From Brachynemurus nebulosus (lineage: Eukaryota; Arthropoda; Insecta; Neuroptera; Myrmeleontidae), in the NCBI GenBank assembly GCA_035578155.1, contig JAPWDM010000013.1:8519527-8583526 (forward strand): a DNA stretch of 64,000 nucleotides. Reading direction: 5' to 3'. The translations under genes were made by a program, and so were the position numbers. Shown piece after piece: positions 4,746 to 58,817 of this stretch. Below the pieces are notes generated by a model. The model had not been told where the DNA came from. It made no database searches and saw only the letters and a program-made list of their open reading frames with translations. Every line of letters starts with the position of its first letter. Positions within the stretch are counted from its first letter, which is position 1.

Positions 4746-5650
4746 ATTAAACTAGTGACTAATAATATCTATTGCTCCTGTCACGTGCAAGTTAATTAGG
4801 ACGCAGTTATATATGCCCATACTTCTTTAAACTGTGGACCTTTTTGGTCCCGCTAAATAGGAATGGAAGTCTAAATTCTGGCAGAACGTTGGTAGTTGCG
4901 GAAACAGAAACGAACATCTGTTACATCGCTATATACTTACTCAAAAGTAATTTATTCTCTTTGATTTTTATTATTTAGGAGTTGAATGACCTATTTGAGT
5001 TTATATATAATCAAATTCTGAGTTTTCATCTTTTGTAAAAATATTGAAAAAAATACATTTCACTAATTGAGTAATAAACCGTTTGATCTTTCGTTACAAA
5101 ACGACAATTAAGTCACCATTTACAAAATATACAAATTAATACACAACAAAAATCTAACTTTTTGCCATTTTGCTGTCAATTTATTGAAATTTTCTTACCA
5201 AATGTTTCGCCGCGCCGTTCGGTGTGTGGCATTGGCAAATAATCAAAAAAACAATTTTTTCAAAAATCCAATTCCAAAATACAATTTTAAATATAATATT
5301 TCATTAATGTTTTTTAATTAAACATCAAAGTGGTCATTTTTATTTCGATGCCTTGAGCAATACCTAATGTACGCACATACTGGGAATCAAAAAACGACTG
5401 AAAATTATTTTAGAAAAAACAAAATTGATTAATATTATTAATTTGTAAATATTAATGAATTTTGATATTTCAACGAGTTTTATCTAATTTCATATGTTTT
5501 GATTCTTATCTGAGTTATCTATGAATAGGTACATACAGGGCATACACACAAACATGCATTTACATATACTGTTTCGGTACAGAATGTTACAGATTTAGTC
5601 AACATGAACAATATTCTCAATAACTAAACATCTGAATTCAAGAATTTACT
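4746..5650. other. AT-rich intergenic DNA
   Basis: Nothing recognisable as a gene or as an element with paired ends. Confidence 0.5.
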
Positions 5651-5690
5651 AACAAATTTCGTCTGCTAGTAGAACATAATATCAATATTA

Positions 5691-6025
5691 CGGGGGACAG
5701 GTCTACCCACACTGTCAACTTCCCATTGGATGCCCTTAAAGACTATTGCAAATGAATAACTTTTTCTTAAATTCAGGGGACTCTTCCTCTGAAGGGGACT
5801 CCACCCTTATCAAACAAAAACGCGAGACAAAAAATATTTCACAAAAAGTTTCTTATTTCGATTTTCCGTTTACTTTTTTTTTTTTCTAAATTTTACTAAC
5901 AAACACACACACAGACATCACGCTAAAAACGATGGATTCGGATTCTAGTGACCTTGAAACGTGGAGATATGTCAGAATTAGCGATTCGTAAAATCGGACC
6001 CATTACAATAACTTCCAATGGGAAG
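5691..6025. mobile_element. Nested insertion with TTA duplication
   Basis: It interrupts the left arm of the surrounding foldback element. TTA is present on both sides (5688-5690 and 6026-6028), consistent with a 3 bp target duplication as made by PIF/Harbinger elements. Inverted CTTCCCATTGG and CCAATGGGAAG motifs lie near the ends, the left one about 28 bases inside. No coding frame. Confidence 0.45.
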
Positions 6026-6189
6026 TTAAAAATTTACAATGTTAAGGTCCACCTCTCAAAAACAGAGAAAGTATTTTGATTACGAATAAGTTACGAAATA
6101 TAATAATATATTTCGTAGCTTAATTTTGTTAATATACCTAATAAATTAATTGTTATTACAAAAAAAAAAAAGAAAATTGAATACACTTG

Positions 6190-6246
6190 TAACGGGATTC
6201 GATCTCGGTACCCCACTCTGGCGCTCGACCGCTAAGCTACACTTAT
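6190..6246 (-). tRNA. tRNA-like relic
   Basis: On the minus strand TAGCTTAGCGG fits an A box, and AGATCGAATCC is close to a B box at a suitable distance. A three-pair D stem can be drawn. The anticodon and T stems do not pair well and the acceptor is not convincing, so this is a decayed tRNA or tRNA-derived SINE head, not a working tRNA gene. Confidence 0.3.
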
Positions 6247-6402
6247 TTCGATCAAACGTACTAAATAACTTGATTATATCTGACCTATATTTTTGTCCAA
6301 ATTTTAAATAAAAGTATTTCCTCTGTTTTTGAGAGATGGACCTTAATATTGTAAATTTTTAATATTGATATTATGCTCTACTAGCAGACGAAATTTCATT
6401 GA

Positions 6403-7613
6403 AATCGGTGACGACCATACCTGAACCGTTCCTCGTAAGTGAAATTTTATCAAAATTAACCTAATCATATTCTTTTCAATTTTCATTAATAGGTAAAACA
6501 AATCAATTCTGCCTTAGAAACCAATAAATGTTCCCCTTTCGTGTATAATTTTTTGGTTTGTGGGCATATCAAATTTTATTTCTGTTCTAAATGTCTTGTT
6601 ATATTTATTGTTTAAGATGTCTTTCACTGCTACTGACAGTCTCTAAACTTATATGTATAAATTCGTTTCTTCTAAGATTTTTCCAACTTCTTAAAAACCA
6701 ATTTCCATTTCACAGAAAACAAATTTTTTTCGATTCAAACAAAACAAAACCAAAACAATTTTAATCTTTGAACAAAGAAATCGTTTTTAAAGTGTCCAGT
6801 GTAGTGTAAGTGGTGACACACGATCCAGACTCAGAAGCCACCGAACAAAAATGTCACCGTGTCAACAAAATATGTAACTTCTACATACATAGATGTCGCG
6901 CATCTGTATGTACGACCGTGACGCCGTTGCGCGATATTAAAATACTAGAAGCTTACAGTTAGTTTTTAGTTGCAATCATTAAGTTAATGTTAAGTCATCC
7001 GTAATATTTAAATTTCCAACTACTACTATCTCATCGCATATTATTCTTTATCTTTTAATATTTATATAGTTATAATTCTATTAAAAGAGAACTCTAAAAC
7101 GTGGCGTATATTCCATAGATGTATATTTCGAATTTAATAAAATGAGCTAGAGGGAGGTAGGTATTAAACTTGAAATTCCTATCAGTACCTATTGTAGTAA
7201 CAATAATTTAGGACAGTGAGTTTTTGTTTAGGAATAAAACACTCGAAAAGTTTCCAAAAACAACATGTACTTTATATTTTTGTTGTTCACAACAGTGGTG
7301 TGCAATACAGTGTGTAAAGTTAAACGACTTCGGGTGCACAGAGAGGTGCTAGGTTCGATTTCACACACCTTCGATAATTTTTTTTTTTTGCATCATATGA
7401 AAAGTCATCAAAGCCTTAAAATATATCCAAGATTCAACCAACTACTACATTGTAAAATTGTAACCAGTGCAATAACCGTGGTATTCGCAGTAACAATTTT
7501 TAGTGCCTTTTCAAATAAATTATTACCAAAATATAATATTGATATAGTGAAAATGACTCACTAACATAAATTCATGTTTTAGGCAAACTCGTAATATAGC
7601 TATATCTCACAAG
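6403..7613. other. AT-rich intergenic DNA
   Basis: No gene supported. The 99-codon frame near 7265 uses a non-ATG-like context, runs through a T tract and shows no domain. Confidence 0.5.
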
Positions 7614-7956
7614 TAGTGATAAGCAAAATTAGTCTTGGTCTTGCAGTCTTGTCTTGGTCTTGCATTTTTTGCAAGAGAGCAAGACCAAGACAAAAGCAAG
7701 AAAGAAGCAAGACTCTTGCAAAACTATTTAAATAGCTTGAAAGTATAATTAATACCGTAAAAAGAAAAAATTCTAATTTTAGAAGGAAAAAATTCGCTAA
7801 TAAAAAATGCAAGAAAGTGCAAGATTTTTTAGCAATACCAAGACCAAGACTGCATATTGCAAGACCAAGACCAAGACCAAGGCTCAAACTGCTCTAGCAA
7901 GACCAAGACCAAGATTCTGAATGCAAGAGCAAGACCGAGACCAAGACTGCTAAGTT
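7614..7956 (-). repeat. CTTGGT/ACCAAG hexamer repeat element, copy 1
   Basis: It begins AGTGATAAGCAAAATTAG and is built mainly of CTTGGT or its complement, in the order CTTGGT block, spacer, ACCAAG block. The spacer (CTTGCAAAACTATTTAAATAG onward, given here as its first bases only in part) is the reverse complement of the spacer in copy 2, so the whole unit is mobile or was duplicated, not just the hexamer. Confidence 0.7.
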
Positions 7957-21028: not shown

Positions 21029-21468
21029 CGGTTAGTGATGAACAAATGCAAGACCAAGACCAACACTTGGCAATCTTGGTCTTGTTCTTGCATTAAGAAT
21101 CTTGGTCTTGGTCTTGCTAGAGCAGTTTGAGTCTTGGTCTTGGTCTCGGTCTTGCAAAATGCCGTCTTGGTTTTGGTCTTGGTCTTGGTATTGCTAAAAA
21201 ATCTTGCACTTTCTTGCATTTTTTTATTAGCGAATTTTTTCCTTCTAAAATCAGAATTTTCTCTCTTTACGGTATTAATTATACTTTCAAACTATTTAAA
21301 TAGTTTAGCAAGACTCTTGTTTTTTTCTTGCTTTTGTCTTGGTTTTGCTCACTTGAGTCTTGGTATTGGTCTTGCAGCCATACTTATAGTCTTGGTCTTA
21401 GTCTTGCAAAAAATGCAAGACCAAGACAAGACTGCAAGACCAAGACTAATTTTGCTCATCACTATTTG
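21029..21468 (+). repeat. CTTGGT/ACCAAG hexamer repeat element, copy 2
   Basis: It starts AGTGATGAACAAATGCAAG and ends TTTTGCTCATCACT, a terminal inverted repeat. Between are CTTGGT runs, an AT-rich spacer with CTATTTAAATAGTTTAGC, more CTTGGT runs and a final ACCAAG block. The hexamer gives spurious LVLVLV or TKTKTK frames on the two strands. Confidence 0.75.
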
Positions 21469-31112: not shown

Positions 31113-31765
31113 TTTGTGTATTAAGAGCGCAAAATGGTGGTTTGCCGCTCGATTGAGAATGTTGACGCGCGACGCCGCCAGGCGGAGCGCGTTAATCTCA
31201 TGAGAGCGGCAAGTCATTTTGTGCTCGAATTACACACAAAATTTTTTCTACAATCTTATAAAATTTTTTTTTTTATTTAAAAGATACTTGAAAAAATAAT
31301 AATGGACGTTAATATTTACTTTAATATTATAATTTTTGCAGGTTCCGAAATATATGGAGGTGTACCTACTTGAGAAATCAGTGTCACTATTACATATTTC
31401 CATCATATATGTACATATTTTTTTAAATATTTTATTCTATTTATTTATTAATTATAGTTATTTATTATTTTTAATTAATATTTTGCAGTTATTTTGAAAT
31501 TTAATAAAATTAATATTTCACTTGATATTACGATTAACATAATAATTTTAGAATCTGTTTATTTATTTGTTACCATAGAAAATATAAACAACGCCTACCC
31601 GATTTGTAATTAAATATACGTTGAGTGAGCGACAAAGTATTATTTTTCCGCTTTAAAGCGCAAAGTAGTAGTTTGTTGCTCAGCAACGAGAGTCTTCGGC
31701 AAATAGATATTTTGCGCTCTCTTCACAGAGCGCAAAAGCCTTCTTTCCACTAAGATTGTAGAAAA
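31113..31765. mobile_element. Insertion in the satellite with GC-rich inverted arms
   Basis: The sequence joins a satellite unit broken at TTTAATAGTTAT to its continuation at GCAGTTATTTAAT. It holds an inverted pair at 31114-31150 (AAGAGCGCAAAATGGTGG then TTTGCCGCTC) and 31202-31238 (GAGCGGCAAG then TCATTTTGTGCTC). A related motif (AAAGCGCAAAGTAGTAGTTT) appears at about 31656, with TTTTGCGCTC near 31710. No coding frame; class unknown. Confidence 0.45.
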
Positions 31766-32391
31766 AAGCAGTTATTTAATATTAGATAGAATTCTTGTGG
31801 TTTGGAATCATTTCCACTATTAACTGGAATAACATTAGGTCGTATAATACGAAATGTCGTTTTCCGACCACTTCGTCTAACATGTGATTCAGAAAAATAT
31901 CGAACTTTTTTTAAGGATTCGGGAAATGTTTAAAAGCAATTCTATAATTTTAAATAAAATTATTGTAGCCTGAAATCGTTCCGCTATTAGTTGCAATAAC
32001 ATTAGGTTATGTAGTATGAAATTTCGTTTTCGGACCACTTCGTCTCACTTGTATAGGTAATTCAAGAAAATATCAATACTTTCTTAAGTATTCAAGAAAT
32101 GTTTAAAAGCAATTCTGTAACTTTAAATAAAATTCTTGTAGCCTGGAATCATTTCCACCATCAAGTGGAATAACATTATGTCGTGTAATATGAAATGTCG
32201 TTTTCCGACCACTTTTTCTACCTTGTAATTCAGAAAAATATCGGGGATTTCTTAAGCGTTACAGAAAGTTTTAAAAGCAGTTATTTAATATTAGATAGAA
32301 TTCTTGTAGTTTGGAATCATTTCCACTATTAACTGGAATAATTTTAGGTCATGTAATATGAAATGTCGTTTCTCGACCACTTGGTCTACTA

Positions 32392-32937
32392 CACACACCG
32401 GCATACAAAATATCTGTAAAATTAAAACCAACAATTTAATTTCAAGAAAATATTAATCTTATTTAAATATTCACTTAAAATTACATGTTCACAAGTCGAT
32501 ATACCTTCGGTAGCAAAAACAAGTAACCATATAATATGGCAAATTTTTGGAATCTTATGTCGTCTAAGAATAATTTAAGTTTAAGATTAAACAAATAGAA
32601 AATTAAACACAGCATTTTAATACCGCCTGGTTCCTCCCGTGCTCTTATCAAAGCTTCCATTTGTCTTTCTATACTCAGAATGATGTCATCTATAGTCTCC
32701 TGGGACAGTCTTTGCCATTCGTCAATTACGGCAGTTTGAAGCTCGACCATATTGAGAAGAAGCGGCATTTGAATTCGAAAGTGACAGACCTCTTAAAAAG
32801 ATTTGTATCAATAATAAATAAAAGCAATTTTATGGAAAGTCAATTGATTCATTATATGAAAAAAAAAAACAGCCAACTTTGTTTAACAAATAGGCTTTTA
32901 TATTTTTTTTATGTTCCGCTAATTATGCCGGTGTGTG
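32392..32937 (-). mobile_element. Tc1-like transposon remnant
   Basis: CACACACCGGCATA at 32392 and TATGCCGGTGTGTG ending at 32937 are perfect 14 bp inverted ends. TA flanks both sides (32390-32391 and 32938-32939). The satellite unit continues directly across the insertion. The interior keeps the C-terminal end of a transposase on the minus strand. At 546 bases it is a strongly deleted copy of an element normally about 1.6 kb. Confidence 0.85.
32616..32768 (-). pseudogene. Tc1-type transposase C-terminal fragment
   Basis: The frame reads NMVELQTAVIDEWQRLSQ, then ETIDDIILSIERQMEALIRA. This matches the end of Tc1/mariner DDE transposases, where an EEW-x-x-I/L segment precedes L-x-x-S-M-x-x-R. 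The catalytic residues lie upstream in an intact protein and are absent here. After about 50 residues the similarity stops. Confidence 0.75.
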
Positions 32938-33265
32938 TATGTTATTGAGATAAATATCGACACTTTTTAAGTATTAGAAAAATGTTTAAAAGAAATTAGT
33001 TAACTTTAAATAGAGTTCTTGTAGCCTGGAAATAGTTCCACCCATTAACTGGTATAACATTAGCTCATGTAATATGAAATGTCGTTTTCCGACCACTTGG
33101 TCTACCATGTATTTCAGACAAATATCGACACTTTCTTAAGCACTAGAGAAATGTTTAAAAACAAACCTTTAATTTTCAATACAATTCTTGTAACCAGGAA
33201 TCGTTTTCGCCACTAATTGGAATAGCATTAGGTCGTGTAATATGAAATGTCGTTTTCCGACCACT

Positions 33266-33994
33266 TGTGATTTTTTGTTCTGTCGATGACGTAAAAGTAC
33301 TAATCTAATCCACAATGCGTCAAATTTGAGTTACCTTTACAAAGAATTCTAAAACGAATGTTATTGTTCTATATCATTGAAATAGAATATACAAAACTTT
33401 CACAGCATCTTTAATATTTCAATCACAACGTAATTGTGGTTTCTAACGAATTCGATAAGCGAATATAATAAGTATCTAATAGCGAATTTTCGAATATAAA
33501 CCTTTCCATTATAAGCATTTATCCGAATTATATTATCATCTATATCGACGATATAGACTCAATTGGGAAATGGATAGAATATTTTAACAATAATTCAAAA
33601 TAATACGAGAACAAAACTTTTACTCAAATCAAAATTTTCAAATAAATCAAATTCCTTAGGTATATACCTATACAATAAAAATAAATTATATTATGAAAAT
33701 AGTATAATATTATCCAACCGTAATTTTCATTATTAATAGAGAATCTGTTAATAAAATTTAACGTTGAATATGTAGTTAATATTCAAAGTTTTGTAAAAGT
33801 TTTCAGTATAAATTTTAATTATTATTATTATAAACATATTATTGAATCGTATGCATGGGATACTCGTTTTAAAACAGAAGGGTCAGGTTATTTGCTAACG
33901 TATAAATATCTGTATAATGTTTTATAATATATCAGGCGTTTCCAAGTTTTGCGTCGATGGGCCTAAATAAAAGTATGTAATGTAATAGTATTAA
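33266..33994. other. AT-rich intergenic DNA
   Basis: No gene or paired-end element seen. Confidence 0.5.
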
Positions 33995-36339: not shown

Positions 36340-36748
36340 TATTCGAACAAAATATTTTTTTGTTTCCTATCAATTTTTTTTATTAGAAGGTAATTTTTTC
36401 GTTCACTATAGATTTCGTAATCTTAATTTGACCAATAATTCACTATTTACAACTTCCCATTTCGAAAATTTTTTTCCAATTATAATTGCAATTTCGTTGT
36501 GACCAATCGTCATATGTCCAAAAAAAAAAAAATTAAATTATTCCTGTATCATAAGAACACGTAATATATTATGTGGAGCCTATTTTCAAGAACCGGTTAG
36601 TTCAGAATATTAATTGGTACCGATATTTTGTGTCAAGTTGGACGTCACGAGAGGATTCAGATGCGCTATTAGGGAAGATTTAAAAGCAAAGGTAAATAAA
36701 ACGTTAGAAATGAACCTTCCTTTTTTTTGAAGTCGGCTAAAAATCTGT
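36340..36748. other. AT-rich intergenic DNA
   Basis: No gene seen. The last 150 bases adjoin the hammerhead-bearing palindrome and may belong to the same element. Confidence 0.4.
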
Positions 36749-36761
36749 GTCATCGGAATAT

Positions 36762-36802
36762 GCCCGACATGTTTCGACCGATTTTTGGTCATCCTCAGGG
36801 GC
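36762..36802 (-). ncRNA. Hammerhead-ribozyme-like motif, minus strand
   Basis: The mirror of the motif at 36884-36924. On the minus strand it reads GCCC, CTGAGGA, T, GACC, loop AAAAATC, GGTC, GAAAC, ATGTC, GGGC. The stems are kept while loop bases and the variable N of CUGANGA differ from the other arm, a pattern expected if structure was conserved before the copies diverged. Confidence 0.5.
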
Positions 36803-36883
36803 GAGAATAGCAATCAAAAATTCAAAAGACATTCAACATTTGTTGTTTGTTTTTTGTTCTTTGAATTTCTGATTGCTATTCTT

Positions 36884-36924
36884 GCCCCTGACGATGACCA
36901 TAAATTGGTCGAAACATGTCGGGC
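36884..36924 (+). ncRNA. Hammerhead-ribozyme-like motif, plus strand
   Basis: In order: GCCC (stem I, 36884-36887), CTGACGA (fits CUGANGA), one extra T, GACC, loop ATAAATT, GGTC (stem II), GAAAC, ATGTC with the expected cleavage after C (36920), and GGGC (stem I, 36921-36924). The very short ACATGT stem III is like that of minimal hammerheads in Penelope-like retroelements. The extra base before stem II departs from the standard core, so activity is uncertain. Confidence 0.5.
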
Positions 36925-36937
36925 ATATTCCGATGAC

Positions 36938-37662
36938 AGTGATTTGGATATTTCTATACTGATTTCTAGAACTTTTTGGTGTTTGATTTTTGTGCAGTGA
37001 AATTTGCCTGAAATTTTATTTGATATTAGAAATATTGCCGAGAGAAAAATTTTGGTACCATTCCCACAGATTTCCAATCCCACTCTTGTCCAATTTATTA
37101 ATCTTAATTCCGTTTCGGAAGTTACATAATTATGCCATATTCCATTTAACATGACGTTGCCAGTTGTTACCAGATTATAGGTTAATACTTCATTTATTCC
37201 AAGAATTAATTAATTTTTTTTTTCAATAACGCTTTTCCTCATTAATTCGAAATTTTGTATATGTGCTCAGACAGATTTACCTGCTTACTATGCAAAATTC
37301 TATGGCAAAAATATTTCCCATACGAATACATGCATTTTACTACATGTTGGGTTTTCCTAATCAACATGAAACTTCATGAGAATTTTTTTTATTCTAAAGC
37401 CTATCCAATGTTATTGCATTGCTTTCAACCAAGTCTTAATTTCGGCCGGAACGCAACGAAACAGTGTTCTAGCACCACCCCGAAATTTTTTTTTTGATCA
37501 ATATCTTTAGGAGTGGTAGAATTGATTGTGAGAGCAGAGGCATATGGTAAGTCAACACGATATTTTTTTCTAGTCAATCCCATTTGTAGCCCATTCAGGA
37601 GAAACTAAGCAAAGGCGACCTCTTATTTTGCTCGCTTCTGTTTTTTGTGTCTTATTTTTTTT
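36938..37662. other. Intergenic DNA
   Basis: No gene supported. 37440-37620 and 37725-37765 share blocks with 53920-54110 (GTTCTAGCACC, GGCATATG, AGGAGAAAC, GCACCTAAAATTTTA, ATTAAGCCCTG), so this is part of a dispersed repeat. Confidence 0.45.
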
Positions 37663-38113: not shown

Positions 38114-38767
38114 TGGTTCGAACATTTTCGGCAAACTGCTATTTGAAATCAACCACCTCCGTGTATATAAATTTGAACATGATCAAATTTACAAAAAAAA
38201 AAAAAATCATTTTGTTTTTAATGTTACTATCAAATTCTAATGTATATTTTTTTAATTAAAAAAAAAAAAAATCAAATAAAAATACAGCAGCCATGTTGTA
38301 CGTGAGAGAGAATTACTGAATGTTGTTGTTTATAATATGAAGAGGTATCTGGCAAGAGAGGTACACAGGTACCATACCTCCGATATAAATTTTTTAAATG
38401 AAATTTGATAATAATATAAAAATGAATATTTACTGATTTATCTTCGTCGTTTGAATACTTTGGTTTTTTTTCCATTCTCAATGCATGTTAATATTTAATT
38501 TACTTTAAATAATACTCATATTTCAAAAAATATTGTATGTGTATAATACGTAAGTTACGGTAAATTCCGTCCGTATGGTAAATGTGTATTTTTTGTGTTC
38601 AGTTGATATTGAAGATTAGATTGAAATATTATCATAGTTTTGATTGTAGCATTTTTTTAAAAGTTTTTTTTAGATATTTCGTGTGAGTAATTCATTCATA
38701 AGTAATGATTTTTTTTTATAACATTTAAAACAATTAAAATTCACATAGTGTTTGAAACATTATCAAA
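38114..38767. other. AT-rich intergenic DNA
   Basis: A tracts near 38195 and 38259. No gene. Confidence 0.5.
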
Positions 38768-38840
38768 TTGGGTCGGCTGGGGCTCGAACGCGGATCTCTT
38801 GGTTGCTAGCCAAGCGCCTTACCAATTAGGCTAAACCCGT
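38768..38840 (-). tRNA. tRNA-like relic, Ala-like anticodon AGC
   Basis: On the minus strand TAGCCTAATTGG is a good A box, CTTGG and CCAAG form a perfect anticodon stem around loop CTAGCAA (anticodon AGC), and CGTTCGAGCCC resembles a B box. The T stem has mismatches and the acceptor ends (ACGGGTT and CCGACCC) do not pair. It is a tRNA pseudogene or the head of a tRNA-derived SINE. Confidence 0.45.
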
Positions 38841-38970
38841 GAAACATTATTAATGTATGGCGACCTTTTGTTCGTATTTATACATACACCAATATTTATT
38901 ACATCGCATAAAATATTGGTGTATGTATAAATACGAACAAAAGTTCGCCATACATTATAATGTTTCACAC
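38839..38970. repeat. Foldback of about 60 bp arms next to the tRNA-like relic
   Basis: GTGAAACATTATTAATGTAT, then GGCGACCTTTTGTTCG and ATACATACACCAATATT on the left are mirrored at 38910-38970 with few changes. The loop is ACATCGCATAA-like. GAAACATTAT also occurs on the other side of the tRNA-like relic (38754-38763), which hints that the relic and hairpin moved together. Confidence 0.65.
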
Positions 38971-39697
38971 GCACTAGATAACATTTGAAATTAAAAAATT
39001 AAAATAATTACAAAATTCCCCCGGTTTTAGTATTAGTTATAAGCCCGAATGCTTAGTAGAGTTCTATCTAGTTCAAAACGGGGACAGCAGACTTTAATAG
39101 GTTTTCTCAGCTAGGCATTTCGCTCACCTGGGGAAAGAGTTCTCTCTGCCACAGGTGTGGCTTGAAAAACGAATATTTTTACTGACAAACTCACAGCAAA
39201 ATATTTAAATAAAACATTAATCAAAAAATTTACTCTTGGGACGTCATCGGTCAAGGACGTTTAACTGTTTTTACGCTATAAAATTCAAAATTTTAATCCC
39301 CGAAACTTGAAACCTTGTGTTAGTAATAGGTTTTTAGAATCGCTATTTTCATTTTTGCTAAAATTAAAGCTGTAAAACTAACACAAAATATCGAGTTTGA
39401 GAATGTGATTTGTGACACATTCACACAAAATTTCGCTCTTGACGACAAAAATGAAAACTGATAAATTAAATTACTAAAGTTCTACTAACATAGGCATAAA
39501 ATATTTTTTAGAATAATTTTTTATCAAAATAAAAATACTGAAATTTGTGCCTATGATATCATCAACTACACTCAGCCATTTAGAGGCTATAAATTACAGA
39601 TTTCTCCTAACGATTTTTTCATTTTTAAAGAATTTTAGACCAAAAGCTCGAAAGTAACTAAATTAATACTTTTTTGCTTTCTTTTTTTTCGAATATA
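38971..39697. other. AT-rich intergenic DNA
   Basis: No gene or paired-end element seen. Confidence 0.5.
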
Positions 39698-45028: not shown

Positions 45029-48000
45029 TCACACTAGATAGGCTTGCACGGCCGGATGTTGGGTCTGCGGGTGGTGGTGGGGATGATGTTGTGGAGCGCC
45101 GGTGGGTGGCATCCGTCGTCCCGAGCCGCCTCGCTCTAACGTCGAATAATCCGAATCTATACTAGAATAAATATGATCACTAAGAGGTCGACCAGTGGCG
45201 TCGCTCGCCGCCAACGATTGCGTCACAGGATTCTGAAGTGGTTGCGCCTGTGACTGCTGTGTCGTCTGGGCCTGCTGACGTCGCGCGGGCCTAGGCGATG
45301 GCGTGGCCGTCGTTGCTGACGAGTAGTTGGCCTCGTCGTGGTCCTGGGACTCTTGTGACTGGTGCGCCGCCCCATGGTGAGCTGGACTTCGTTGCAACGA
45401 GTTGTTGGACGAGTAAGCGGGTGGGGCACCGTCACAACTCTGTGCCGCTCTAAATAACGGATGTGCACTGATGTGTGCATGGAGTGCCGGCGTCTGAGCG
45501 GTCGTCGGCTTTAATTTCTCGGGGTACGAGTGCCCGTGCGTGCCATTCGACACCACACTTGAGTCTATCGTGTAATTATTTATATTCCTACGGTAATTGG
45601 TGTGATGGTGATGATGGTGGTGCTTGGAACGTGGCTGGCCGCTTGGCATCGCGTACCGTAACCGTTCCCAAAATCGTTTGTCACCCCATCGAATACGTGC
45701 GGCAGTCTTCAGGTAGGGCCGCAACTCGGGATCGAGCTCGGCTTCTGGTAACGGGGACGTTTCTTCAATGACCACCAGTTTGAAGACACGTCCTTTGAGC
45801 GCTTCGTGTAGCGCCTGTCGCAACTCAAATCGCGACCACTCTGTCTGTAGAAAGTTACGTGACAGAATCAGCAGAACTCGTCTGCTGGCCTCGGCTGCTT
45901 CCAGGACTGCAGCAGCTGGTGCCGCGTGCTGCAGATACGAGTTGGCGTGCGGTAAGTCACGATGATGTAGACACAACTGTAGTGCCGGCGTGCCAGTTTC
46001 CAGCTCGGCGGCAATTGAACGCACCACAAACTCCTCATCTTTTGGGCTGTAGCACACGTAACCGTCGTAAAGTTTATCACGATCTTCACAATGTTTACTC
46101 CCGGCTGCGGTAAAATGGCACAGACGCACGCCGTAACGTGAAAACAGCCACACGCGCACAGTCTCGCGAAACACAAACGTCAAAATCAGCACCACTAGCA
46201 ACACCAGAAACAACGTCAACGTGATAACCATCATCGGTAAATAGTCCGACACAAGCATACTCTCGATCACGGAACTGCCGGCATAGAAATCACTACAGGC
46301 GGTGTCGTTTAAATTGATTTCACGTTTGTACGGCGGTTTTGAGTCCGTGTTGAAACAATAAATGTCCGACGTATCGATCACTTTCGCCGCATTTTCACTC
46401 ACCCATGTGGTTAGTTCTTGTAAAAATTTACACCTACACGACCACTGATTGTTACCGATACCAAGTTGCACTAGATGTGTGTTTAACGACAATTGCCATA
46501 CCGGAAAATTTGTCAAACGATTACCATCCAACCGCAATATTTGTAACGATCGAAGCGGTTGCAAAGTCATATTGCCAATAAAAGCGATTAAATTATTTTG
46601 TAAATATAGTTCTTTTAAATGCGCTAAATGTTCAAATTCGTAACCTTTCAATTCACTTATACGATTATCCTCTAAATGTAGTGTTTGTAGCATATTCAGT
46701 CCATTGAATGTGCGATTTTGGATCGTCTCAACACCACTCCCGTTCACATACAGCACTCGCATATTTTTACGCCCGATAAACACATGATTTTGTAACTCGC
46801 GAAAATCGTTCCCGTCCAAATACACTTCAGTCGCGTCCATTGGAATGCGATGCGGGATCTCGTTGACATTTTTCGACGAACAATCCACAATATTCGTGTT
46901 CCACGTTTGATCGTGGTAGCAGGTGCAATTTTGCGGACAAGTCATCTCACAATCGCACGCATCGAAATCGCAACAATGACACAGCGCAAAACAGTGCGTT
47001 TCGTATTTACACAAAAAATCGCTCGGTTTCGCCTCGACCAATGGCATGTGGATCATGCCACGCGAGTACGTCATACGACACATGATATTATCCAAATCCA
47101 TAACGCGGGGATGTTGTCTTAGCGCGGTCATATTGTTGATCATTTGGAGCCATTCCATGGTACAGTCGCAATGAAACGGATTTCCACCGATATAGAATTC
47201 TGGCAGGGATCGATTTATCGGGACCGGTGACAGTCGTAATCCGTTCAATTCTAAATGTACCAATTCGTTCGCGTACATATCCACTCGGGCCAATTTCGTC
47301 TTGTCCAAAAATGTGTTTGCGTGCACGTTGCGAATAAAATTGTTATTGATGAAGAGCAATTCAATACTGTTTGGTATCGACATTGGCGATATCTCCGTGA
47401 TACGGTTATGACTAGCATCCAGTGTTGTAACACTAATTTCATCCTGAATTTTATAATAGTTGCCCAAATGTTCGATAAAATTATTATGAATATCCAACCA
47501 TTTTAAACTGCTCGGTATGAACGCATAATCGAACCACACCAAATGATTATCCGATAAATTAAGCCACAATAAACTCGCGAGTGTCGCAAACACACCATTA
47601 ATATCCGTCAAAAAATTCTCATCCAAACGAATCGCTTCAATTTGTGTGTTACGATCAAAAGTACCACGTTCGATACTCTGGATCTTATTTTTCGCTAAAT
47701 TCAACACTTGTAAATTTGGTAGATCCCATAGCATACCACGCGTTAAATTGCCAATATTATTCTCGATCAAACGTAAACCGGTCAATTGTTGTAGATTTTT
47801 AAACGATCCATTTCGAAAATCACTAATTTGATTTTCACCCAGATCCAACGTTTTCAAAAATGATAATTCTTTTAACGCCTCGGGCACTTCCTCCAATGCG
47901 TTTGAACTCAAATCTAAATCTTTCAGATCGGAACAGTTACGAAACGCTTGCGGATGAATGCTGGTTATTAAATTGTTATTCAACGTCAGTTTGCTTAACA

Positions 48001-49213
48001 CGAACAAACCGTTGAACAAGTGCGGTCCAATTGTATGCAAACGATTCTCGGCCAAATTTAATGTATGCAAATTGTACAACGGTAAAAATGCATTATCTTC
48101 GATCAACCCAATGGAATTGTTGCGTAAATTTAAAATTTGCAAGAAAAATAAATCCTTAAAAGTGCGCCCATCGATTCGGGTCAAACTGTTATGCGACAAA
48201 TTCAACACAATCAATCGGATCAAACCCGTAAACGTGCCGGCATCTACATGATTACTGGAAAGTTGATTACCGGACAGATCGAGCACCAACAGTTGCTCCA
48301 AACGATGAAATAGACCCCGAGCGAGCGAAAATAGCGAATTATTTTGCAGATGGACTTCACGCAATTCCCGTGATCCAGCAAACATGCCCTGCGGTAACGT
48401 CTCCAAACGATTACTCGAAAGATCCAGTATTCGCAACGACACCAATCCAGCCAATGCCTCGCCAGAAACTTCGGTAATATTGTTGTGACTTAAATTTAGA
48501 TGTTGCAATCGACGAAATCGCGAAAACACGGATCCTTCGGGTAAGATGGATAGTTCGTTGTAGGAGACATCGAGTACTTGCAATTCGGAACCTCCACATG
48601 ACGGTTGTTTCGGTTTCGCCGCATCACCCAATCCCAAACGTTCAACGCTTCGCAACCGATTTCGTGTTAAATTCAGCGTTTGTATATTCACCAGCGGACA
48701 GAAAATATCTTCGGGCAACGCACGAATATTGTTGTTCGATAGATCTAGCGAAGTTAATTCACGTAGACCCATCAGACTACCGGCAGCCAATTCTAAATAT
48801 TTGTTCGAACTCCATTCCGAATTGTACGTGTTAATCGTGAGCTTCTTCAATTCACGCAACCCATCGAACGCTTCCGTTGGTATATGCAAAAGTTTACATC
48901 GATCGATAATCAATTCGGACAATTGTTGCAACTTTTGGAAAGCTCTCGGTTTTATCGAGCTTTCAAACAATAGTACATCACTACATTTAACACGCAATTT
49001 TGTGGTCGCCTCGGACGGCATTGCGCCAAATTCGCCGTCCAATTTACGTAGATGGCATGCAACGGACGTGCGGCCCGAAGAAGTGTTATTGCCATCCGGC
49101 GACCAGGAACACTGATCCGTTGTTAGATTTTCCGGACGTTGCGCTTCGACGAAAAAAATGACTAGTATAAACAAAAATGTGGAAAATCCGAACTTAACAA
49201 TGTCAGTTTCCAT
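45029..49213 (-). CDS. Tollo: Toll-family receptor, Tollo (Toll-8)-like, intronless
   Basis: Single open frame of 1394 residues. Residues 1-24 form a signal peptide (hydrophobic run FGFSTFLFILVIFF, likely cut after VEA). More than twenty leucine-rich repeats follow to about 670, then a Cys-rich C-terminal cap (NPFHCDC near 675), the CHCCDFDACDCEMTCP cysteine cluster and second N-cap (near 745-780), a short second LRR block and a second cap (NQWSCRC near 921). A membrane helix lies at about 990-1013. The TIR domain spans about 1044-1190 (box 1 YDGYVCYSPKDEEFV, box 2 RDLP, box 3 FWERLRYAMP). The tail has a seven-His run, NYSSATTATPSPRP, HIYSSIDSDYSTL and a terminal VQAYLV. The two-block ectodomain places it in the Toll-6/7/8 group; the tail motifs favour Tollo. 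Drosophila relatives act at the cell surface in epithelial patterning and polarity and in modulating immune responses. An intronless CDS is usual for this group. Toll-6 or Toll-7 is the alternative. Its base composition is far less AT-rich than its surroundings. Confidence 0.95.
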   Translation of the reverse strand: METDIVKFGFSTFLFILVIFFVEAQRPENLTTDQCSWSPDGNNTSSGRTSVACHLRKLDGEFGAMPSEATTKLRVKCSDVLLFESSIKPRAFQKLQQLSELIIDRCKLLHIPTEAFDGLRELKKLTINTYNSEWSSNKYLELAAGSLMGLRELTSLDLSNNNIRALPEDIFCPLVNIQTLNLTRNRLRSVERLGLGDAAKPKQPSCGGSELQVLDVSYNELSILPEGSVFSRFRRLQHLNLSHNNITEVSGEALAGLVSLRILDLSSNRLETLPQGMFAGSRELREVHLQNNSLFSLARGLFHRLEQLLVLDLSGNQLSSNHVDAGTFTGLIRLIVLNLSHNSLTRIDGRTFKDLFFLQILNLRNNSIGLIEDNAFLPLYNLHTLNLAENRLHTIGPHLFNGLFVLSKLTLNNNLITSIHPQAFRNCSDLKDLDLSSNALEEVPEALKELSFLKTLDLGENQISDFRNGSFKNLQQLTGLRLIENNIGNLTRGMLWDLPNLQVLNLAKNKIQSIERGTFDRNTQIEAIRLDENFLTDINGVFATLASLLWLNLSDNHLVWFDYAFIPSSLKWLDIHNNFIEHLGNYYKIQDEISVTTLDASHNRITEISPMSIPNSIELLFINNNFIRNVHANTFLDKTKLARVDMYANELVHLELNGLRLSPVPINRSLPEFYIGGNPFHCDCTMEWLQMINNMTALRQHPRVMDLDNIMCRMTYSRGMIHMPLVEAKPSDFLCKYETHCFALCHCCDFDACDCEMTCPQNCTCYHDQTWNTNIVDCSSKNVNEIPHRIPMDATEVYLDGNDFRELQNHVFIGRKNMRVLYVNGSGVETIQNRTFNGLNMLQTLHLEDNRISELKGYEFEHLAHLKELYLQNNLIAFIGNMTLQPLRSLQILRLDGNRLTNFPVWQLSLNTHLVQLGIGNNQWSCRCKFLQELTTWVSENAAKVIDTSDIYCFNTDSKPPYKREINLNDTACSDFYAGSSVIESMLVSDYLPMMVITLTLFLVLLVVLILTFVFRETVRVWLFSRYGVRLCHFTAAGSKHCEDRDKLYDGYVCYSPKDEEFVVRSIAAELETGTPALQLCLHHRDLPHANSYLQHAAPAAAVLEAAEASRRVLLILSRNFLQTEWSRFELRQALHEALKGRVFKLVVIEETSPLPEAELDPELRPYLKTAARIRWGDKRFWERLRYAMPSGQPRSKHHHHHHHTNYRRNINNYTIDSSVVSNGTHGHSYPEKLKPTTAQTPALHAHISAHPLFRAAQSCDGAPPAYSSNNSLQRSPAHHGAAHQSQESQDHDEANYSSATTATPSPRPARRQQAQTTQQSQAQPLQNPVTQSLAASDATGRPLSDHIYSSIDSDYSTLERGGSGRRMPPTGAPQHHPHHHPQTQHPAVQAYLV

Positions 49214-50300
49214 AATGATGGTTTGGTGGTGTGTGTGTGTGTGTATAGTTTGGAAATTGCGAAAAATTTCACAGAATACTGATAAATTTTGCTACGAATT
49301 TAAAGTGATCGCTGATTGAAAAATTCGGGTCATGTCAGCCGTCGTGGTCGTCAGTGCTTCGTAATCGTTTTATCACAAATACTGGCGTTGTGTTGTCTTT
49401 GGACTGTTTCAGTCTTCATTGCGTCGTAGTGCACTTTTCATTTTCGATGAGATAAAGTGCACAGATTTTTTTTTCGTTTGGGAATCACAGAAAAACATTT
49501 GAAGCACACATTGTTTATTTCGCTTTTTAAATTTCATTTGTTTTCACATATTTAAAAACTTTGTTTTAGAAACACCATTTAATTTTTTAATTGTTCAAAA
49601 CACTTTGTTTTATTTTTAATTAATCACAAACATATTTAAAAACTGGATATTTCTTCATTTAAATTAAAAAAAAAAAAAAAAAAAAACTTTATTTTCAAAC
49701 AACAGTTATTTTATTGGGCGACCTGCGAGCGTTTTTTTGTTTGTCCTATGTACGTTGTATCACAATATAAACACAAACTAAAATAATAACGTAACCAACA
49801 AAAGCAAGCAACGAAGTTCGTTTAACGGGGCCCGTGTTGGATGTTGTGTTTGACTAAAAACAACGAACAGACGAGCAACGACAACACCATTAAAACATCC
49901 AAACATCGTTACGTTCAAATCGTCACTGACTCGAACAACCGAGTGACTGCGGTGTATACCAGTTTCAAGAGTGGGGTTATTCGAAATAGTTCACATGATG
50001 GCCGCGCAGCGCTCTAGGATGGACATTCGACACAACAACAATGACGGTGAGGGGCACATGCGCCCCGTAACGATAATATGATGGGGTGGGGGGCCCATAT
50101 TGGTGACTTGACGGTGGAGTGGGGCTTGGATCATGCCTCCGGCGAATAAGATGTGTATGAATGTGTATGCCTTTGTGCAAACTACCACTATTACCGTAGT
50201 ATGTACTTACTACCTGCTTGCTGCCAGAAATGAATGTTTGATGTGCAGCAAGATGGAGCAAGAACGATGAAGATCACACAGACCCACGGAAGACCCTCGT
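49214..50300 (-). other. Upstream region of the Toll gene
   Basis: This stretch is richer in G and C than the rest of the intergenic DNA, most clearly at 49800-50290. It contains a short GT/CA tract just before the start codon (49230-49244), an A tract at about 49666-49686 and the candidate promoter near 49927. Short open frames at 49977-50261 have no recognisable domain. It is best read as 5' UTR, promoter and proximal regulatory DNA of the receptor gene. Confidence 0.45.
49890..49930 (-). promoter_or_regulatory. Candidate Tollo core promoter (initiator plus DPE)
   Basis: Read on the minus strand, TCAGTG at 49929-49924 resembles the arthropod initiator TCAKTY, missing only the last base. 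Taking its A (49927) as +1, GGATG falls at +28 to +32 and fits the downstream promoter element consensus RGWYV at the required spacing. This would give a 5' UTR of about 710 bases if unspliced. There is no clear TATA box at -30. The motif match is seen; its use as a start site is inference. Confidence 0.35.
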
Positions 50301-58464: not shown

Positions 58465-58817
58465 GTGATGAGAAAATGCAAGACCAAGACCAAGACTGCC
58501 AAGTCTTGGTCTTGGTCTTGTTCTTGCATTAAGAATCTTGGTCTTGGTCTTGCTAGAGTAGTTTGAGTCTTCGTCTTGGTCTTGGTCTTGCAAAATGCAG
58601 TATTGGTATTGGTCTTGGTCTTGGTATTGCTAGTCTTCCTTTTTTCTTGCTATTGTCTTGGTCTTGCTCACTTGAGTCTTGATATTGGTCTTGCAGCCAT
58701 ACTTATATTCTTGGTCTTGGTCTTGCTCTTGGTATACATAGTCTTGGTCTTGGTCTTGTTCTTGATCTTGCAAATAATTCAAGACCAAGACAAGACTGCA
58801 AGAACAAGACTAATTTT
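58465..58817 (+). repeat. CTTGGT/ACCAAG hexamer repeat element, copy 3
   Basis: It starts AGTGATGAGAAAATGCAAG, like copy 2, and ends AACAAGACTAATTTTG. It shares GCATTAAGAATCTTGG and GCTAGAGTAGTTTGAGTC with copy 2 (there AGAGCAGTTTGAGTC). It lacks the AT-rich spacer of copies 1 and 2. Confidence 0.75.

Follow-up and report, generated by a model that had tools for sequence, protein, structure and literature searches.

The palindrome in the stretch of DNA analysed here (the window, 64,000 nucleotides from the neuropteran insect Brachynemurus nebulosus) is very probably an insertion of two inverted, 5′-truncated Penelope pseudo-LTRs (pLTRs), each carrying a minimal type I hammerhead. Both the motif and the arrangement are already known in the literature, and the palindrome is a further example rather than a new system. 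Its arms, 98 nt each, are 88% complementary, with 12 of 98 positions mismatched, and flank a 9-nt centre (Table 1). No open reading frame or other coding sequence of a Penelope-like element (PLE) was found in the window insert itself. Around this copy, no target-site duplication longer than 6 bp was found, the only candidates being of 5–6 bp and mostly of low complexity.

Table 1. Features of the palindrome and its continuation, in window coordinates.
Feature	Position	Strand	Basis and remarks
Palindrome left arm, read as an inverted, truncated pseudo-LTR end	36741..36838	-	Arm comparison, copy comparison
Hammerhead-like motif, minus arm	36762..36802	-	Core pattern and descriptor; predicted cleavage after 36766
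Extra T after CTGAGGA, ahead of stem II, minus arm	36791	-	Sequence, family alignment
Palindrome right arm	36848..36945	+	Arm comparison
Hammerhead-like motif, plus arm	36884..36924	+	Core pattern and descriptor; predicted cleavage after 36920
Extra T after CTGACGA, ahead of stem II, plus arm	36895	+	Sequence, family alignment
Last four bases of ACATGT (36914-36919), self-complementary, occupying the place of stem III	36916..36919	+	
Sense pseudo-LTR, 3′ continuation	36946..37028	+	Homology to other copies stops at 37025-37028
TTTTTGTGCAG, resembling a 3′ splice site	36987..36997	+	Common to other copies; splice role putative

Read outward on opposite strands, both arms keep the order GCCC-CTGANGA-T-GACC-(7 nt)-GGTC-GAAAC-ATGTC-GGGC, as the original prediction had stated and as the sequence, a core pattern and a structural descriptor bear out. 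This is a type I order, with stem I formed by GCCC/GGGC and stem II by GACC/GGTC (4 bp each, in both arms), a 7-nt loop II, and the conserved core elements CUGANGA, GAAA and UH in sequence. The single base that had been noticed between CTGANGA and stem II is indeed present in each arm (T36895 and T36791). The motif has no real stem III of its own, only an A-U pair with a CAUG loop, and is for this reason filed as a minimal PLE hammerhead and not as the full form; in both arms ACATGT stands in place of stem III. Of the 12 differences between the arms, loop II holds two and N7 one; these three are the only ones inside the 41-nt motif, in agreement with the claim that changes are confined to the loops and the free N. 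A fourth, at 36803, lies just outside, where a possible fifth stem I pair would be U-A in the plus arm and C.A in the minus arm. There is one CGAAACATGTC per strand of the window, so that either strand carries a single sense motif, again as predicted. The core pattern matches the 64-kb window only in the two arms and has no match in 100 shuffles, and a descriptor including stems I and II finds the same two places only, with four matches in total over 1031 simulated 64-kb windows; the two window matches, being copies of each other, count as about one independent match.

The covariance-model check proposed with the original prediction did not support the hammerhead reading. At gathering score, Rfam lists no hammerhead in the window. 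Under permissive settings Hammerhead_1 appears on the plus arm alone (36882-36926), with 18.7 bits against a gathering score of 34 and an E-value of 0.055 for 291 bases, and the minus arm is not listed as a hammerhead. Ten loci of relatives yielded no hammerhead among 38 matches with E-values up to 5. As the scores are below threshold, the case rests on comparison instead. MicroRNA families head the Rfam list at E-values up to 10 because long hairpins fit them, and were discounted as a product of the palindrome. In folding predictions, the lowest-energy structure of the plus arm is not the hammerhead (−16.7 versus −13.6 kcal/mol), and the minus arm gives a near tie (−11.6 versus −10.6 kcal/mol for the hammerhead). 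For the window copy as a whole, the predicted structure is a hairpin at −142.9 kcal/mol, compared with −13.6 and −10.6 kcal/mol for the two hammerhead folds. The self-duplex energy of ACAUGU is modest, at −4.6 kcal/mol.

Comparison was made across the 960-Mb host genome, which comprises 138 contigs. A strict motif pattern, in which the outer stem II pairs are fixed and the two inner pairs are free, has 92 matches and a relaxed one 359, and the reversed control of each has none. Of the 184 cells of the free pairs in the strict matches, 156 are Watson-Crick, whereas 5000 shuffles average 90.3 and never exceed 111; for the 67 distinct strings the figure is 107 of 134 (shuffled mean 65.5, maximum 86). 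These shuffles ignore descent. GATC/GATC (22), GACC/GGTC (19), GGTC/GACC (15) and GGCC/GGCC (8) are the commonest versions of stem II. Inner stem II pairs are likewise Watson-Crick in 163 of 200 cells among the 100 listed of the 359 relaxed matches, versus a shuffled mean of 94, again by shuffles that ignore descent. The original prediction had called for a genomic family with conserved stems, and such a family is present; these counts show a stem II that covaries genome-wide and is maintained. A dimeric hammerhead requires self-complementary bases in the place of stem III. There, 93 of the 100 listed relaxed matches have a self-complementary ACNNGT (AT 78, TA 9, CG 6), as do 64 of their 71 distinct strings; by our own reckoning, one quarter would be expected if NN were free and even.

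The 205-nt palindrome, used as a query, has 52 matches in the host genome. An alignment of 29 copies from 20 fetched stretches with the two window arms gave 31 rows, in which the motif is favoured, the copies having been found using the window sequence. The majority residue is kept at 123/124 positions in GAAA, 61/62 in UC, 175/186 in CUGA.GA and 29/31 at T10, at 203/248 in stem I, and at 417/496 in the 3′ flank, 256/341 in the 5′ flank and 19/31 at N7. Loop II (199/215) is as conserved as stem II (228/248). The order of the core is kept in 23 rows and, by our own reading, changed in eight, two of those at the junction. Within the window family stem covariation does not exceed shuffling, the observed percentage of pairing being reached by 116 of 500 shuffles.

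The same alignment bears on the extra base, which had been described as a departure that may stop or alter cleavage. The base is T in 29 of the 31 aligned copies. Genome-wide, the pattern with the extra base has 359 matches and the pattern without the extra T has 10, in which, by our own reading, G takes its place and the stem starts one base later. Judged from these copies, it characterizes the family and is no mark of decay. In a viroid hammerhead, an additional A in the corresponding position caused a moderate drop in trans-cleavage, and its replacement by U gave a 3–4-fold increase (PMC3705267); by analogy, the extra base need not harm cleavage.

The arrangement of copies was surveyed at 21 places, represented by 22 stretches because L028 and L066 coincide. 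Head-to-head pairs occur at ten of these (the window, L016, L017, L020, L021, L022, L024, L030, L031 and L033), and tail-to-tail pairs at none of the 21. Searching with a palindrome enriches the fetched copies for pairs; in a check free of this bias, made on the 100 listed relaxed matches, all 7 neighbours lying no more than 2 kb apart were −/+. The pLTRs are inverted and variably 5′-truncated, the copies at the 21 places having a common 3′ end and a variable 5′ side. Junction pLTR coordinates differ in all ten pairs, and single arms are found at other places. When 27 pLTR ends were inspected by eye, 11 ran into a common tail and two did so partly. The pair at L033 sits in a perfect 10-bp duplication, and nowhere else among the 21 places does a duplication exceed 6 bp. 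Cleavage as the process that sets the insert ends was considered and is not supported, as the inspected copies run through the predicted cleavage site. With one sense motif per strand and ten pairs with different junctions, the palindrome is, by its layout, not a designed double ribozyme. Near the common 3′ end of the pLTRs, a T-run plus GCAG resembles a 3′ splice site, and a similar site is found at L070:771-783, just before a PLE frame; the two are perhaps remnants of a retained leader intron.

A search for the same tail beside reverse transcriptase (RT) genes had been proposed. At L066, a 242-codon frame with the RT letters YVDD (5576-6301) lies upstream of a complete pLTR (6737-7112) in the same sense. 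Pfam on its own leaves this frame unnamed, but it is 58% identical to L068:4508-5116. The latter matches RVT_1 with an E-value of 1.2e-5 (25.5 bits versus a Pfam cut-off of 29.6) and has one protein relative, 40% identical. A frame at L069 is a 51% relative of the L068 fragment and exceeds the cut-off for RVT_1 (E 3.8e-11); this RT has 416 protein relatives and, among the 120 listed, most carry RVT_1, PF28514 and PF26215 and some GIY-YIG. Named relatives of a Penelope-type protein of the host genome include beetle proteins (Diabrotica). The host genome gave 3865 RT candidates at first look, of which 150 were scored, and a sequence search of the PDB gave no match to the RT fragment. A GIY-YIG domain (PF01541) adjoins the pLTR in opposite sense in L026/L067, with an E-value of 9.3e-5 for the L067 frame. 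In another subfamily, a tandem 4318-bp unit, with three motif places at that spacing, combines the motif with a GIY-YIG-like relic in the same sense (L074), the latter having no Pfam match. A PLE reverse transcriptase is thus found for the family and not for the window insert, and on sequence evidence the link between the window-type pLTR end and a PLE-type reverse transcriptase is shown at one place, L066. The loci L069, L071 and L072 also contain PLE coding regions as head-to-head palindromes, 99.6–99.8% identical over 0.9–3.2 kb, which suggests recent activity.

Minimal type I hammerheads of PLEs were reportedly described by Cervera and de la Pena in 2014 and by Lunse, Weinberg and Breaker in 2017. 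The claim that hammerheads with a tiny stem III are known from these elements agrees with available descriptions, in which cleavage as a dimer is proposed (PMC7761336; PMC6466107). The likeness lies in a type I core that lacks a real stem III and sits in PLE ends; the host-genome matches may differ from the published set in one added base between CUGANGA and stem II. The arrangement resembles that of Penelope in Adineta vaga, in which inverted pLTRs meet head to head at palindromic junctions, explained by the authors through self-priming, and which also shows solo pLTRs, an optional 3′ tail and, at some copies, 9–10-bp duplications (PMC3846280). Unlike those elements, the window insert lacks an ORF between its pLTRs, and its sense end extends about 135 nt past the ATG, versus 12–22 codons there (PMC3846280). 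PAc, a Poseidon PLE of Anolis, is described as having hammerhead stems I and II, with C3 and G8 before the ATG; its ATG starts an ORF, whereas the window ATG frame is short (PMC11167929). The PAc hammerhead needed added protein in order to cleave, and mutants of its catalytic residues were without effect on in vitro insertion (PMC11167929). Animal retrozymes share type I hammerheads, the amphibian ones having a single stem III pair with a palindromic tetraloop and cleaving better as dimers; the window element, unlike them, is not tandem and has its motifs on opposite strands (PMC7229834). Head-to-head hammerhead pairs as such were not found described in the excerpts covered (literature on hammerheads with Penelope or palindromes, retrozymes, both polarities, and insects), which is weak evidence of absence.

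Other origins of the palindrome appear far less probable. A palindromic foldback element or MITE of the DNA-transposon type, bearing an incidental hammerhead likeness, would be consistent with the 98-nt arms and with the 10-bp duplication at L033, yet this origin is improbable: ten pairs have ten different junctions, arms occur singly elsewhere and the 3′ end is common while the 5′ side varies, the motif recurs in other subfamilies with swapped stem II pairs, and an RT fragment lies upstream in the same sense. A retrozyme, that is, a small non-autonomous retroelement based on circular RNA with hammerheads at its borders, is very improbable, even though the insert is short and non-coding, the hammerhead is of type I, and amphibian retrozymes have a comparable one-pair stem III and palindromic tetraloop (PMC7229834). 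The motifs are inverted instead of directly repeated, with one sense motif per strand, and so no unit lies between two same-strand cleavage sites.

It is scarcely to be expected that the block is conserved for an encoded N-terminal peptide, with RNA structure not the cause. T36895 of the plus arm belongs to an ATG (36894-36896) that occupies the place of the start codon in the anole PLE PAc, where C3 and G8 precede it (PMC11167929). Use of the motif ATG as an ORF start is nevertheless not supported for the window, where the frame stops after 22 codons; moreover, CTGANG is conserved upstream of the ATG, and stem II swaps between GACC/GGTC, GGTC/GACC, GATC/GATC and GGCC/GGCC. Chance likeness within an ordinary palindrome would agree with the sub-threshold Rfam score but is barely conceivable, as the reversed patterns have 0 matches against 92 and 359.

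Under the preferred reading of two inverted pLTRs, two RNA copies of the source elements would pair through ACAUGU into a common stem III and cleave after GUC; by analogy with the published hammerheads, the source-element motif probably cleaves as a dimer. Head-to-head inserts could arise by self-priming or strand switching during reverse transcription, and selection would have worked on the source elements, not on the window copy. A read-through transcript of the latter is predicted to fold into a long hairpin in which just one hammerhead is in sense. The window copy is thus probably locked in its own hairpin, and it lacks the further sense motif that dimer formation in cis would take; most likely it does nothing, or might at best give rise to double-stranded RNA.

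A separate arrangement is found at L079:214-756 (G000:C74, about 76148813-76149355), which consists of four 135-bp tandem units, each a palindrome. Hammerhead-like motifs occur on both strands (+277, 412, 547, 682; −246, 381, 516, 651), some with a changed core or stem. No second array of this kind was made out among 98 matches from 40 scored of 100 candidates, L079 being the only multi-unit array discerned there. Were head-to-head pairing more than a by-product, tandem amplification of palindromic pLTR pairs, as in L079, might yield small self-cleaving RNAs of both polarities and lead from a retroelement end to a viroid-like ambisense replicon, though this is a long shot. In viral contigs, the first pattern matched no stretch and the relaxed pattern nine, by eye chance or unrelated; one of them, in contig L003 (7576-7607, minus strand), reads CTGACGATGACC...GGTCGAAACACGT, with stem I unpaired by eye, and is probably a chance match.

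Elsewhere in the window, a tRNA-like Rfam match at 38769-38838 (−), with 35.5 bits the only match at gathering score, is not called by ARAGORN. It sits in a stretch (38732-39002) repeated in L026, L028 and L029, perhaps a tRNA-derived SINE. A 168-bp tandem repeat forms two arrays at 31764-33267, and GTCTTG/CAAGAC-type repeat arrays are located at 7831-7948, 21074-21199 and 58502-58770. The region 45029-49291 encodes an LRR-TIR protein resembling animal Toll receptors.

The finding confirms the known association of hammerheads with Penelope and provides one genome where the dimer model for Penelope hammerheads lends itself to study by sequence alone. In this genome, stem II swaps its pairs while the substitute for stem III stays self-complementary, and an extra base that is absent from the standard hammerhead is kept, in a form that scores below threshold in the Rfam hammerhead model.
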